From Fasciolopsis buskii (Eukaryota; Platyhelminthes; Trematoda; Plagiorchiida; Fasciolidae), in the NCBI GenBank assembly GCA_008360955.1, contig LUCM01000831.1, positions 119,712 through 183,711 on the forward strand: a DNA stretch of 64,000 nucleotides, in the 5' to 3' direction. Both the position numbers and the translations under genes were made by a program. Positions 5,601 through 55,560 of the stretch are shown one piece after another; the first letter of the stretch is position 1, and each line of letters opens with the position of its first letter. Below the pieces are notes generated by a model, which did no database searches, was not told the DNA's origin, and saw nothing but the letters and a program-made list of their open reading frames with translations.

Positions 5601-8600
5601 TATACTCAAGAGCTGCTTGGGACAGAACTGCCTATCCTATCACACTGTTCAGCCTCCGTTCAAACCGATCTCGTCAATTCGATCGAGATGAATATTTACA
5701 AATAAGATACAGTCATTTTTGTCTGTCAATTGAATGACAACGAAAGTTGCTTTTTGTGTGTGCTTACAATGCGTGGAATATGCTCAAGTGACACAAAGCG
5801 GAGATCAGTCCTTTGGACCGGTAAACCGGCAGACTGATCATCCAAGAATAAATATCAAACTTATATTCAGAAACACAATTATGGAAGATCAAATCAAAGT
5901 GATCTGATGAAAACAACAGTGCAGCCGCACAGATGAGTTTCCCCAAAATGTTTGTGGAAATGTTCTACTGGAACAGTAAGGAGTGTTGGTTGCTCGGTGT
6001 CCGGTCGCTAATGGTTAGTATTTTCGGGAAATCGTGAATTTGCACTGGAACACAAGCACTAAGCCGATTTTCTACGTTGAAGACGCACTTCTGCATTGTT
6101 CTCTTATTGTTTACAAATTTAATATCCACCACGATACCAAGATGGTCATGTGACCATCTCGATCGTTAAGTGTAGTGATACCGGTTTGAAGGAAGGGTTT
6201 GGTCATTTAGTGAAGTGTTACTACTTAGGAGGGTATATCTAATCATTTATAAATTCCGCCATGCGAAGATTTCTGATCACTTTCGAGTAGCAGAGCTTGA
6301 GAATAGTGAATCAGTATATATTTAGAGATACCAAATTTTCATACAATGATGTGTTTGCGAGACTGATATTATATACTTCAATAAAAATGATTCATATTGT
6401 ATAGATTATGAACACTAAATGTCTTATTTTGGTGAAACCACTCCGATTCTATGAAACACGGGGAAAACCCGGACCAGTCAGAGTTCTAGCTCGACCAGTT
6501 TACGGAGTATTCAAGCAATTAATTAGGCAGATCGTCTACCTTCGAATGATGTCATATCTCCACAGAGGTACAAAGACAAACGTATCCAGTGGTTTGCTTC
6601 TTATTAGGGAAAACTTTTTAGTCAATCAAACGAATGCCCATCGTCATACGCGACAGATATCAGTGATCAGTTTGGAAACCCTCGCTGGTCCTATAAGCAT
6701 GCCATTGAAAGAATGATGTGACGTCAACCTCAGTAACTCCCGTCGGCAACAATTTTGCACGTTACAAACGATTCTCCATGCATTGTCAACATCGACATTG
6801 AAAATCATAGAATCACTGTCCATCTATTTCATTTTTGTTAGAAACCAAAAACAATGCGTATCCATTGCAAATCGGCCCGAATATTTGTCGGTCTAACTTC
6901 TTAGCTATTTTACACTAACCGAAACGATTCAATTGTTATTGCGGTCTGAGAAAACCCGAAACGATTCGGAAAACTAGCGGACAACTTGCGAAGGAGTCGA
7001 ATTTCCGGTACTGGATCGGATCTAACAGTACAAAGATCCGAGTCGATTTACTGGACTGCTTGAGGTCATGTAAATTCTGACAATGTTATGAGTAAAACGT
7101 GCAAATTTTATGAGCCCTATGGATTTGAAAGTGCTCGTGTTGATATAAACCAGCACGGTTACGGAGCCTCAGGCCATGTTCGCTTTCGGGTCTTGTGAAT
7201 TGCAGTTCAGTTACACACCCCTCTCCAAGATGGCTTTCCCAGTCCATGCACCGGATATATATATATATATATATACGTGTTGGTAGTAGGAGATTGAATG
7301 TTTTCGTGAAATAATTCATCAAGTGATATCATCGCTCAAACCAACATGAACAAACCAGGGGAGCGCAGCACACCTGTTTCAACTTTATTAGGAATCATCA
7401 GCAATGCATATCCATCAAGCCCAAACTGGGACGCGAACCCAGAACGAACGATTCTGAGTCGAACGCCTTACCCATTACGCCGTCGGGCAGGTACTGAACG
7501 GGTCGTTGAACTTCACCACATGATGATGTTGCACCTATCCGTGACTGATTTGCACGGCCACTGGCAGCCAGCGCACACCAGTCGACCCCTTCTGATTGAT
7601 TACTTTTCTGCAGGTAGCTTTGGAAATGACTTACAGAGCTTGGCTACTTGGTATGTGTTAGTAGTATATGCACATATATACATATATGTATATCACCAAA
7701 AACTTATTCGTAGCCTCAGGAGTGTGCAAGGAAGCTCTTCGTTGAAGAGTCCACAGAGGAACCAAGACTGCGATTCGCTGATAATTCTTCGTCAGATGGG
7801 CTGAACTAACCTGAGGAAGGCTGACGAAATGCCACCAGAATGGACGTAAATTGTGTGTTTCAGGGTCAGTTTCGTTCACCAATTCACTTACTACCTACAG
7901 TAATAATATATATATATATATATATATATCACAGTTGTGATTCTTCTGTGGACTCTTCGATGAAGAGCATCCATGCACACTCCTGATGCTACAGATTCGA
8001 TTGTGGTGAGAAATATCAATCAATTCGGAGTGTGCAAGTATGTGGATGTTTTGACAAGAGAGCATCGGGTACGCATACCTGACGAGCGACAATAACCGCG
8101 AAACCGGTCGTGTGCTCCCGGGCTAATTTTGTTTACGCATCCAGATACTACTTCCTGGTTCTATATATACATATATATATATATAATCACCCGCCTGAAA
8201 ATAAGGATATTCCAACAAAACAAGTCAGTAAAATTTTATATACAGCGGATAACTGAGGGCGAAAAGTAATAGTAAACCAGTACAAACCAATTGCTGTTTT
8301 GTATTTTTTGCAGCACAAATTCTACGATTTTTCACTGTTTTCAGATTACTTGTTTAGGGAGGATGAGTTCTACAGACAGGTCACAAAGTGTTCGCCCCAG
8401 TGACTTCGGTTTTGAGTTATATATCTTGGCATCTCCAACCAGTAACATTCCTCATCTGTCGGGCCACAACCAAGAAGGCAGGAAACACTGACCGATGACA
8501 AAGCCGAAGTAATGTTCTTCATACCTCTAAACCAAGTTAGAGCCTGACCGTCACTCCCTTTTATCCACTCTTGCCCATCACATGAAAAAGGAGTAGGGAA

Positions 8601-14600: not shown

Positions 14601-17600
14601 TCAGTGAACTAGCTATTTCCGCATTGAAATACGGACCTCGACGGTCAGCCGTCGACTTGAGGGGAAGGTTGGAACAGTTGGGATTTGTGTGGTGAATTTT
14701 TCACTTCTGTTCTCGTCGCGTCTTAGTATCTCCTTCGTTTCTGCTGGTCTGGATGGCTGGGGCACACACGGTGAAGATGGGTAGAGTGGCTTTTAGCAGG
14801 CTGAAGGAAGGAGAACAATGATACTGGTGCACTGCTACGAGAAGACAAACAATATCGTTCAAAAAGTACCGAAATGCCAGTATTCTGATGTACCCAGTAA
14901 ACGTGGCTGTTGTCAGCATTTTACTGTAGAAAAGGCCCATCTTACAAGTTTCGTGTTTGAGAGATGAGTGCGATTTTAAGAGAGTGCAGAGACTAATTTT
15001 CCTAAAAAGGATTTTGTTTTAAATCGTTCGCGAATATTCGATCAACGGTTAGTCACGTTAGCATGTATATATACTCACCGGAATCTGGTTTGTACGACAG
15101 GAGGGTGAATGGATTGAGAATCGATTTTAAGCGTTTACAAACGTGATCGGTGGTCGTTCTGTTTGGGTATGGCACATCCAACAGACCGAAAGACGACACA
15201 GGAGGCGCATGATGGTATATGATTAGTCGGAACTAGGTACGTGGATAAATAAAGTTCTGATGAAAAACCGAGAAACCGATAGTATGCTTCCGGAACACTG
15301 CTGACTAAAAACTGTGCATGTATATATATATATATATGTATATGTATTAGAGGTTAGAAGGCGTATTCTGTGTTATGAAGTTTCGGTCCAAACTAGGACT
15401 CGTTGTCATATATATATATATATATACATGTATATATATTACCGGAATCTAATTTGCATCCTCAGGAATGTGCATAGAAGCTTTTCATTGGAGATTCCGC
15501 AGAGGAACCACAACTGTGATTCGTTGATAATTCCTCGTCATTTAGGCGGAGCCAGCCTTAGAAACGAGAGCAGAATGCTCCAGAACATATATATGTATAT
15601 ATGTAAATGTGAAAATTGTAAGTAGTATGTGGATGAGTGAACAGAGTTTTCCCGGAGGCACACAGCCGGTTTCGCGATTATTGTCGCTCGTTAGGTATGC
15701 GTATCCGGAACTCTCTTGCCCAAACATCTTTATGGTTGTCCACTTCAAATCGTTGCCATTCTGCTCTCGTTCCTAAGTTTGGCTCAGTCCAACAAACAAA
15801 GAACTGTCAACGAATCACAGTTTTCGTTCTTTTGCGGACTCTTCAATCAAGAGTTTTCATGCATGCGCCTGAGGCTTCAAATTAGATTCTGGTAAGATAG
15901 CGATTCGAAGTACATAAGCATAAAGAGATTGGGAGGAGAGAGTACCGGGTAAGCATACCTGGAGAGCGATAATAACCTCGAAACCGGTCGTGTATTTCCG
16001 GGAAAATTTTACGCACTCCGCCAGATACTACTGACAGTATATGTTTATATAGATCCACCAGCGCAAGTGGTTGGTAGTTTAAGGTTACGAGGGCTTGAGT
16101 CCGATGGAACCAGTCCTTTGGTTAGCGGTGGTTGGGTAATGGCTGACCGCCCTAGGTAAAACGCAATCGACGCACAGTCCTCAATGCAATTTGATCTTGT
16201 CAGACAAACGGAAAACCCGAATCGAGACCGCACTGTCTGATTCGCTTCCAGATGACACAGTGGCGTAAGTGAGAGCTAAGTGTGGGTATGCCGTTTGAAA
16301 AGTTTTTATTGTGATTTGTGCTTACCAGTCAGTAGGAGCGGTCCAGATTCGATAACAAATGATATGAACTTAATCAGATGAAATCCGTCAAAAGAGATAG
16401 ACAAATCATAGCGAGATCCGGACAACCGGTGAAGTAATAGAAATCACACGGGGGGGAAAATATGCAAGCAAAATTCTCTGCAAATTTCTCATAAATTCAT
16501 TTATTAAAAATGGGATATTTTTGAAGCATCACCTTGGCTGTTCTCGTTTGAGTTCTTTGGGCTGACTGCAAGGAGACATCAGAAGAGTAATTAGAGGTTG
16601 CTCAACAATACATAACCGAGGACAGGATATAACATACTAGTGTTGCTTAATCGGTTCCCCGTATTTGCATAAATATATGAAGCATTCGAATCAAAACAAA
16701 AATAATATAATCCAGTTGTCCTCGTATTATCTTATCCAAGCAAGTCATGAGTGGCCAATAACCTATTCTGCTTGCTTAGTTCTTTCTTTCGTCGTCTGAT
16801 ATCGGTCACCTCTACAGGTCGTCGTAATCTTCATGGTGTTCCAGAAAGTGAAATAATTCCCAGCGCTTCGAAGTGTACAGTTCCGTGTTCGCGCGATTTA
16901 TTCGTCCTGAAGTTTCTTCATGAACCGGCGTGAATTGGTGATAGTATTTAAGCCAAAAAACAGTGACTTGGAATTCAACTTGAGGCAGATCAAAGTGTCC
17001 AAGTATTTTTGTAAGGTTATGAAAACTAAGCTTGACGTTTAGATCGCAAATCTTTCATCACCAGTCGAGGTGACACTATGAGTGCGTCACTTCGACTGAT
17101 GATGAATTGTTTGCGATCAAATCGTCAAGTTCAGCAATCAGAACTTTCAGAAGACCAACACGTTGAGCTACAACAAACGCGGATGTACTAGTGAAAATAA
17201 TTTCTATCAATTATTTACTTCATTGTGTCAAAACCCCTGATTACAATAGCACAGTCACGTGACCTTGATTTCGTTGTTCATTTAAACAAATCGAAATTCC
17301 TCTCGAAATTTGCTCGCCAAAACCCAAAATTGACTAATCATTAACCGCTGGAAGAAGAACAAAAATCCCGCTAGCAGAACGACGATTTTTCTCCCACGAA
17401 AGCTGTTATCGTGTCTTTCAAATGTTCTAGATGAAATCTTCCCAGTTCGTGCATTTATAAAATTCCCAATAGTGAACTAACAGTTGAAGAGGTCAGACTC
17501 CGGTGTACATCCGTTTGCGTGTATTTTCGGTCAGGACAATGAAAAACACTAAAATAGCATTGTAATCCTGGTTTCAATATGATTTCTTACTGCAGACTCT

Positions 17601-34914: not shown

Positions 34915-37900
34915 ACTTTGAAGATTTGCGCTTTAGGATTCGTGAACGACTTTGAGCAGTTTAACGTCAGAACCTTAGATGCCGGTAAGTACAATGGCGC
35001 ATCTTCACAAAATAGCAGTTTCCAGATTTTTCCTTTGACGTTTTCATTGCTCTTTGGTCTTGAAAATTGCATCTTCGGAAATTGCATTATTTTTTCTCCT
35101 TTCAGCACAGGTCATGCACTCTGAACTGCCATGACCACAGGTTATTGAGATTCTGTACTTGATTGATTAAGTCTCACAAAATTGTTCGATCAGAAAGAAT
35201 CAGTTGAAGAGAATGGTACATGATCGATAGAGTATCGGGTTGAATGCCATTCAACGGATTAGCAAGCAAATATACACGGAATGTTGGGTCATGAACACTG
35301 AACTAGGACAGTAAGTGTGGAGACAAAGATTAACGAACTGAGTTCGAAAACGAAAACAACAAATTAGATTCGTGTGACAGAAATTTTATTGTTTGTAACA
35401 TGGGATTACGAGTCGAACTCTTCGGCAAAATGTTCGTTGAATTAGCGGCCTTTTGAATTCAGGCAATTAAAAACGGGGCAACACTGTGTACGTACAAAAA
35501 CGCACATCGGGGTGGCTGGCATTGGTCAAACGGGTAAGGTCGTGACGTTTGGACGAGAGGGTCGCATGTTCGAATCCTCTCACCGCCGGTCAATTTCCCC
35601 ACTGGGGAGCCCTCTGCTGGCCCCGGCCCTCTTCCAAAAAATTGATGTACGTTGTTATTTCATCAATAAAGGAAGTGAAAGAAAAAGAGTAAAATCCATA
35701 GAAAATTCAGTTTGTCTAAATTACTATGAAGTTTGATTGCAACTTAGAAAGAATAAACTTAGAAGCTTCAAGAAGCTACCGTGGCTGGTAGAACGAGCAA
35801 TACGGATTCAGATCGTATACCAATAAGCTAGAGTTTAATTAATGAATCATGATTCTTTATTAGATTCATACTAAGCAAAGAGTAAGATGGGAACATGAGT
35901 GATGAATAATGATCGATTAGCACACATTATTGACACGTGATGCCGAGGGAGGGTTGTGGCGGAATTAGGAGCGAAGCAAGGGGTGCAAATAAGTCAATAT
36001 CGGTTTCACGGGAAAACTTGGATCTGTCGGGAAACAAGTTGTTCTCGCAGAATGTTTGAATCAGACAATTGCCTTTGTCTGTCCAATCATGTGGGGAAAA
36101 CAAACAAATTTTCGATTTGTCTTTTCGTCTCCTCCAAAACGATGCTCGTTGAATGCGAAAACTTCAAAGCCCATGGAAAACAGTTTCCAATGGGCACAGG
36201 CACACAGGGTAGACCAAGGCTGACCTTCCAGTCGGTTGTTGTTAACACGGTCAGAGCTATTGAATCAAACTGCTGGCTAACGGCACTTAAATTGGATCCA
36301 GTCAAACAGCACACACTTGTCAATGCATTTCAATGTATTATCGTACAACCGGCAACAGTCCGGAGAAAGTAAATTAACTACGTCCGCCGCTCGGTGATGC
36401 TCCACTGTCCGAGAGTCATTCTGGTGTTGTTCGACGGATTCCGAGAAATGCATCCAAATTTTGTGAAATTTGTAATGGGATGGAAGAAATTCTGACGAAC
36501 TGTTTGGCATAGACATTTGCGTACACTAAATGATGTCGCATTTCAGTCGTAAATGTGAGGGTAAAAATAAAATATGAATAATAAATAAATAAATAAATAA
36601 ATGAATAACTACATTCGTGAAAAATATGAAAAACCGTTGAGGAATTATCATAGCATAGTATGATATGTTTCTCAAGAATTCGGCTGAAACCCGGTCACGA
36701 TTTGTCAAAATTAGAGCTAAATATGGGACAGTGGAATTCTTAGTGATATTGATTCTAGATGGTACGGAAATATGAGAGCAACACTTTGAAAGATCTTTGT
36801 GCACCGGATCGTAAACCGAAGATAGGTTATTGGAAAAACTTCGGGAATCATCGTTGTTTGAACCGGCTTGAGAGAAGGCACCGTCATCAGCAGATGGCAA
36901 GGGGAGCTAGTAGATGAGTCGCTGCTGTGAGTAGAGAAGAGAAACGGTGAAAGAGCAACATCCTGTAGCACACCTGACTTGTTACTCAACGGTTTCGAAA
37001 CTTTACCGTCCATCCGTGTGCACTGGGTTCGGTTAGTTTAAGTAATCAGACAGCCATGCTAATAAAGAACTCGGACAGACAAATGTTTCCAGTTTGTAAA
37101 GTAGAGGAAACCGTGAGACCGATTCAAATGCCGACGAATAGTCTAGAAAGGTGCACCGCACAGATTTCATCCATGCATTTAAAGATTTACAAATGTGGTG
37201 AATGAGGGAGTTGATAGCATCCAAAGTGGACCTGTTAGATTTATAGGCAAACTGACAAGGGTTGTCAGGAAGATATATAGAAGAACGCAGGCGCTTAAGT
37301 ATAGCACGCTTCGTCCATTTAAGACCAGAAGACATTAAGACGATAGGGTGAAAACGTTTTGCTAAAGCAGTAAAAGTGGTGGATTTAGGGATGTGAATAA
37401 TGGTGACGGGTCTCCAACAGCCAGGGATAGAAAACGAGATTAATGATGAGTTAATCATAGAAGTAAACGCATCGGTCACAGCCACAACACCATGCCTTAA
37501 AAGAGCTGAGAACAGACTGTCAGGACCAACTCCTATGGTGATTTTAGTGGTGCGCAGAAGGTTGAGCATCTCTTCTCTAGAGAAACCTGTAATGCCTCGT
37601 CGTTTTCGTCCTCTTCCAGGATCTCGCTAACCAAATGATGTGACCGTTCATTCCAAACACCTTAAGTGACACCAGTTAATCATAAAGCCGAAAATCTCCG
37701 GGGAAGCTACTTGTTCGGGGAAAACCTAACTTGATAAACTGTTACACGTGTTTATCTCGAGGAATTCTGCTCCCCTTCTAGCCACCCGGGAACTTGTACC
37801 CAAATTTTTGAACTTGACAGTAGACAAACGGCAATAACCGCGAAATCGGTCGTGTGCTCCCGGAGAAATTTTTTTCGTTCTGTCCACGTGCAAAACATAC

Positions 37901-55400: not shown

Positions 55401-55439
55401 TAACAAAGGGAATGTGACCAAGCATAGAAATGGCTGGAC

Positions 55440-55560
55440 AACAGAGCACCGGGAACGCACACAACTGATGAGGGACAGTAACAGCGAACTCGGTCGTGTA
55501 CTTCCGGGGAAATTTGGTTCATCTAACCATACGCGAAACGCACTATTGACAACAAAAGAC
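55440..55560 (+). ncRNA. Mutated hammerhead relic with intact first core box
   Basis: CUGAUGA (55465-55471) is intact, but GAAA has become GAAC (55486-55489) and two of three stem II pairs are broken. CGGUC and the stem I strands (ACCGGGAACGCACAC upstream, GUGUACUUCCGGGG downstream) remain. The box spacing is again 21 nt. Confidence 0.6.

Follow-up and report, generated by a model that had tools for sequence, protein, structure and literature searches.

A minimal type I hammerhead ribozyme motif lacking helix III and its 307-nt repeat unit at TA microsatellites of Fasciolopsis buskii

The hammerhead motif and its surroundings

The window (the whole 64,000-nt stretch of Fasciolopsis buskii DNA analysed here) carries a hammerhead ribozyme motif on its plus strand, together with repeats of several kinds. 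A Pfam scan that covered 132 of the window's 267 frames with a length of at least 65 aa revealed no host gene near the hammerhead. The same scan returned four marginal matches and one reverse transcriptase fragment (37033-37626, minus strand; PF00078, 4.8e-11), for which a protein search gave one relative and the only solved structure matched in the Protein Data Bank was an R2 protein (E 0.0012). Neither result speaks for a Penelope element. Elsewhere, an inverted repeat at 47058-47957/52903-53806 has arms of about 900 bases, mostly 98% complementary and about 5 kb apart. A 300-base direct repeat at 20521-20820/22059-22358 is 100% identical at a spacing of 1538; more repeats share this spacing, and they probably represent a recent 1.5 kb tandem duplication. 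A dispersed 62-base repeat (9137-9198/19874-19935) is 82% identical, and a tRNA-like match at 7418-7488 (minus strand; 27.6 bits, just below the 29-bit gathering score), possibly a tRNA-derived SINE, sits inside the inverted repeat pair 7320-7618/12379-12677.

The hammerhead itself is composed of the following parts, with the basis of each in parentheses:

8066-8120, plus strand: type I hammerhead ribozyme motif without helix III (core letters, Rfam, strict scan)
8066-8069/8117-8120, plus strand: outer stem I, CGGG/CCCG, 4 bp (sequence, fold)
8073-8078/8110-8115, plus strand: inner stem I, GCAUAC/GUGUGC, 6 bp (strict scan)
8079-8085, plus strand: CUGACGA core (sequence, strict scan)
8086-8088/8097-8099, plus strand: stem II, GCG/CGC, with the 8-nt loop ACAAUAAC (sequence, strict scan)
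8100-8102, plus strand: GAA (sequence)
8103-8108, plus strand: palindrome ACCGGU, A15.1 to U16.1 (sequence, strict scan, alignment)
C8109, plus strand: C17, with predicted cleavage 3' of it (motif)

The stretch 8066-8120 is a genuine hammerhead ribozyme motif with a complete type I core: CUGANGA, GAAA and UH follow in order among three stems, of which stem I is open, and stem III in the monomer is reduced to one A-U pair enclosing the palindromic CCGG. Both strands of the window were searched with a strict scan requiring CTGANGA, stem I of at least 4 bp, stem II of at least 3 bp, GAA, A15.1 with U16.1, stem III of at least 3 bp without a minimum loop, and H17. This single site was found in the 64 kb, where chance predicts 0.015 sites (mean of 200 first-order Markov sequences of window length); none of the 200 contained a site with stem I of at least 6 bp plus a stem III loop of at most 6 nt. 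The best Rfam match, over the whole model length, was RF02275 Hammerhead_HH9 (32.2 bits; E 3.5e-4 in 64 kb, 1.1e-6 when 201 b were searched), and at the gathering score of 52 bits Rfam gives no match for the window hammerhead. We attribute the low score to the missing helix III, since the model wants a 5-nt loop there, absent from our motif, and the alignment has a gap.

An earlier note on this DNA, made from the letters alone, had described a minimal type I hammerhead with CUGACGA, GAAA and a GUC site, a clean GCG/CGC stem II and a stem I in two helical blocks. The sequence and the strict scan bear out the core letters and the pairing of stem II, the blocks of stem I prove to be the inner 6 bp and outer 4 bp listed above, and the classification is supported by the core, the scan and the Rfam E-value. 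The same note held that a covariance score below threshold would count against the motif; the score does fall below the gathering threshold, while its E-value is significant. The loopless ACC/GGU hairpin drawn for stem III, by contrast, is not possible, ACCGGU being a palindrome.

Through this self-complementary hexamer, two ribozymes could share a 6-bp helix III, a duplex estimated at -8.3 kcal/mol. The catalytic fold without stem III is estimated at -14.7 kcal/mol and the best monomer fold at -19.0 kcal/mol; in the latter, ACC 8077-8079 pairs with GGU 8106-8108 and stem III is lost. The monomer fold energy is unexceptional (z -1.8, with 12 of 200 shuffles equally low). The alternative monomer fold and the palindromic stem III make poor cleavage of the monomer likely. 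The suggestion in the earlier note that the ribozyme may act as a dimer gains support from the palindrome, for which full pairing is predicted only with a second copy. Dimer cleavage has been reported for newt hammerheads (available text of PMC7229834) and for Penelope-type hammerheads (available text of PMC7761336).

A 307-nt unit and the ends of its copies

The hammerhead lies within one of several copies of a repeat in the window, described here in monomer numbering, in which position 1 is window 8110, the first letter past the cut site:

7928-8169, plus strand: 5'-truncated insertion, monomer 126-307 then 1-60, 96.7% identical to the monomer of array L009
7907-7929, plus strand: (TA)n 5' of the insertion, with the junction AT common to the target and monomer position 126
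8162-8186, plus strand: TA tract of the element (monomer 51-61) merging into target TA, with one C interrupting
7686-7841, minus strand: older inverted segment, monomer 60-214, its outer end 214 adjoining TA
7853-7928, plus strand: decayed piece of the element, following the older inverted segment
15432-16044: head-to-head inverted copies (minus 15432-15760, plus 15757-16044), cores decayed
37821-37876, plus strand: decayed copy, ribozyme region only (nhmmer)
55414-55531, plus strand: decayed copy, ribozyme region (nhmmer)

The left outer end of the inverted pair at 15432-16044 is monomer 214 and adjoins TA, and 7686-7900 resembles a further, older head-to-head pair. Four further copies were found in the window by nhmmer, namely 15752-15607 (minus), 15901-16044 (plus), 55414-55531 (plus) and 37821-37876 (plus), and none passes the strict scan: the CTGANGA letters are altered in three of them, and the copy at 55 kb is without A15.1. 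They are the decayed relatives that the earlier note had spoken of. Another decayed hammerhead-like stretch, recognised by eye and alignment and absent from the nhmmer matches, lies at 15255-15293 (plus).

The family extends across the genome. The 703 Mb assembly (6974 contigs) contains 888 exact matches to the 34-nt core, of which 462 lie on one strand and 426 on the opposite one; the reversed 34-nt control has 0 matches. A first genome search, in which 40 of 1183 candidates were scored, had given at least 41 places, with 307-base spacing on several contigs; the 41 comprise the window itself, 39 places that match the full 141 bases at 98% and one that matches 138 bases at 99%. The earlier note was right that the ribozyme belongs to a repeat family, and missed the 307-nt tandem unit, its setting in (TA)n and the hundreds of copies.

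Arrays with at least two full units were L009, L010, L011, L026, L036 and L050. All five full 307-nt monomers of L009 are identical, as are the five of L010 and the three of L011; the unit measures 313 nt in L026 and 317 nt in L036 and L050, with 96.8-99.7% identity within these arrays. Between arrays, first units are 93.9-100% identical (seven arrays compared). Columns differing from L009 number 23 common to both monomers of L036 and 22 common to both of L050 (gap columns counted), and 12 columns are fixed inside each of these two arrays and differ between them. Such array-specific columns indicate a common origin of all units in an array, either a single template or a single homogeneous source. 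Metazoan non-LTR retrozymes are recognised by a type I hammerhead in each of several tandem units some 150-450 bp long, and the loci read hold 307-nt units of this kind, up to five full ones in a row plus partials, with no LTR seen. The unit has a GC content of 45.9%. When units are joined, stop-free runs reach at most 77 aa, so that the unit appears not to encode a reverse transcriptase; given the 307-nt periodicity as well, a coding part would have no space between units. As a circle, the 307 nt are predicted to fold at -98.6 kcal/mol versus -71.7 +/- 9.0 (z -3.0, 0 of 100 Markov sequences as low), with the UA tract unpaired.

The ends of the copies were analysed in 85 segments of at least 90 nt from 70 loci (66 distinct, with identical junctions collapsed); five segments shorter than 90 nt are excluded from the 3' end table. 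Twenty of the loci came from similarity and 50 from the exact core match or its hit list, in contig order, and conservation of the core among them is uninformative since they were chosen in these ways. L042 and L043 carry the C122 insertion already present in L014 and are still counted, L043 among the 52 segments that follow. In these 52 of 85 segments, the 3' end lies at monomer 58-61, where the unit's single long TA tract (51-61) stops. The proportion is 19 of 23 in the similarity set and 33 of 62 in the contig-order set, the remainder of the latter being made up of seven segments ending at 205-214, nine whose alignment is broken at the cut site and 13 that end elsewhere. In the similarity set, the remaining four are the young array L009, which ends at 206 beside (ATG)n with no TA after it; the young copy L021, which ends at 147, also with no TA after it; the array L010, chained to an older neighbour with an apparent end at 254; and one old copy broken at 301. 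The 205-214 class has eight segments in all, with L009 at 206, L072 at 208 and six exactly at 214, where the one further TA-like run in the unit (AUAU, 211-214) stops.

Of 53 segments whose 3' end falls at 58-61, 52 cross the ribozyme cut site, and the template was therefore a ring or an uncut tandem RNA rather than a cut linear unit. The 5' ends are spread over monomer 2 to 272 (47 of the 52 segments, after N-edged ones were dropped). Directly 5' of 26 of the 52 there is an alternating TA run of at least 7 nt, against a background of 15 in 14,000 positions; no TA run of 7 or more precedes the other half. An overlap of at least 1 nt between segment and TA run is present in 24 of the 26 (expected 47%, P 1e-6), and this microhomology holds on 21 distinct break points (P 4e-5; repeats merged, one row dropped). 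TA runs flank many copies on both sides and mask any target site duplication, a feature that in metazoan non-LTR retrozymes, where it occurs, is larger than 4 bp. Thirteen pairs of copies are inverted head to head with at most 25 bases between the two 5' ends, including the pair at window 15432-16044, and the outer end is exactly at monomer 214 in six of the thirteen and at other positions in seven. In L013 (2053-2368), two copies, each monomer 211-307 plus 1-61, stand tail to tail and meet within TA as a near-perfect palindrome.

Stem I offers a comparison outside the searched core. On the 5' strand of inner stem I, 4 of 372 letters differ, versus 98 of 2232 further upstream (P 8e-4), in a comparison that was chosen after the pair counts had been seen, covers 62 of the 66 distinct copies (four with a poor upstream match were left out) and omits one subfamily position (43 of 62 copies). 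We take this as a modest sign that stem I may have been kept while copies were made. The pair counts contain almost no changes on both sides of the stem, because the copies are too alike.

How the copies may have arisen

The window copy is probably one of a family of non-autonomous, non-LTR retrozymes with a 307-nt unit, and the cycle that we infer for it involves ribozyme cleavage, an RNA ring and a helper enzyme. Tandem copies would be transcribed, neighbouring ribozymes would pair via the palindrome ACCGGU and cut after GUC, and the unit-length RNA would be ligated into a ring. A reverse transcriptase/endonuclease from another element would then nick genomic (TA)n, and the nicked TA end would anneal to the UA tract of the RNA (monomer 51-61) and prime DNA synthesis, which may circle the ring more than once. 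Synthesis would halt at variable points, with the 5' end joining the other TA end by short microhomology, and occasional priming of the second strand at AUAU (211-214) would produce head-to-head inverted copies. Target-primed reverse transcription, as established for LINE elements, usually leaves copies with a fixed 3' end and truncated 5' ends, some of them inverted. In general terms, we tentatively propose, at somewhat less than even chances, that an animal retrozyme RNA ring may be copied directly into genomic TA microsatellites by reverse transcription that is primed by the target and passes round the ring more than once, that the UA tract would serve as primer-binding site, that both nicked strands may prime, giving the inverted copies, and that helix-III-less ribozymes would cut in pairs, which would restrict ring formation to tandem copies.

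As for the helper, two GIY-YIG matches above the family cut-off (E 6-9e-4) were found in the genome among the 150 of 212 candidates scored. One of the two, at 28.6 bits, lies in an open frame at L080 1387-1827 (plus) that resembles Penelope-type endonucleases. With only these two matches, a Penelope-like helper for the retrozyme is a guess. Penelope-like elements have been suggested as helpers of metazoan retrozymes in the available part of PMC7229834. In the available part of PMC11167929, an Anolis Penelope-like protein is reported to start within its own RNA and, on AT-rich DNA, to cut and extend each of the two strands, an activity that could yield copies such as those described here.

The ends of the insertions would be explained almost as well if the template were an uncut tandem transcript of genomic arrays, in which case the ribozyme trims ends or is irrelevant and the ring is unneeded. 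We consider this unlikely, though it deserves serious weight, since arrays with two or more full units exist to supply such transcripts and, in the available part of PMC11167929, insertion by the Anolis Penelope-like protein in vitro needed no hammerhead cleavage. The array-specific variants that monomers share are what a single ring predicts, and a homogeneous source array would produce them as well. It is more doubtful that the repeat represents the pseudo-LTR terminus of a Penelope-like element, present as short truncated copies rather than as an independent element. Such elements typically carry minimal type I hammerheads that lack helix III (PMC7761336, as far as available), and a GIY-YIG frame exists in the genome; nevertheless, the 307-nt periodicity and the limit of 77 aa speak against a coding part between units.

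We regard as very improbable that the family is an ordinary satellite spread by exchange at the DNA level, through DNA circles or recombination between TA runs, with the ribozyme as a fossil. Tandem arrays, homogeneous units and TA runs on both sides would all be expected of such a satellite. However, recombination at TA tracts predicts whole units that start and end in the tract, and few of the segments ending at 58-61 also start there (L020 at 51, L015 at 57); the lower variability of inner stem I relative to the other upstream letters is a further point against it. 

Relation to known elements and meaning

Schistosoma Smalpha has a hammerhead with a full helix III. By description, our element is like Smalpha and the W-element, whose SINE-like or satellite repeats also contain a type I hammerhead (available part of PMC8490949). 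The earlier note had placed the motif among trematode satellites and Penelope-like elements; the nearest kind is rather the metazoan non-LTR retrozyme, which, in the available text of PMC7229834 (Cervera and de la Pena 2020), has a short tandem unit of 150-450 bp, a type I hammerhead, GC below 50%, arrays as well as solo copies and a stable predicted circle, all features shared by the 307-nt unit; no LTR was seen in the loci read. The same text describes amphibian (newt, axolotl) satellite 2/HHR_Amex1 hammerheads, which have, as here, a one-pair helix III and a palindromic tetraloop and which cleave better as dimers; the unit of satellite 2, likened by description only, is 330-350 bp versus 307 nt (PMC7229834, available text). 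The minimal type I hammerheads of Penelope-like/Terminon elements are similar in having the core without the non-conserved part of helix III (PMC7761336, available text), whereas the present unit has no room for the coding part of those elements. In contrast to the palindromic ACCGGU here, invertebrate hammerheads mostly have a usable helix III, according to the same portion of PMC7761336.

A retrozyme with a minimal hammerhead is an already known kind of element. In the titles and abstract openings listed for retrozymes or hammerheads in trematodes, Fasciola, Paragonimus and Penelope-like elements, and for their dimer or palindromic helix III, target-primed reverse transcription and rolling-circle copying in metazoans, the present element is not described; a search for retrozymes in flatworms returned none, and one for retrozymes with microsatellites returned a plant retrozyme and a curation guide only. 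The available portions of PMC7229834 and PMC7761336 make no mention of (TA)n targeting in which copies end 3' within an internal UA tract. What looks new in detail is that a probable invertebrate retrozyme carries a putative dimer-type ribozyme devoid of helix III, and that its insertions bear a (TA)n signature with a putative priming tract inside the unit.

The return of retrozyme RNA rings to DNA has so far been a hypothesis (PMC7229834, available text). Here, many young copies appear to record this step in their ends, through a preferred internal 3' end complementary to the target, variable microhomologous 5' ends and inverted pairs resembling the products of twin priming. These signatures make the priming model testable with a purified enzyme and a TA-run target. 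Under this model, TA runs across the genome would be seeded with ribozymes.
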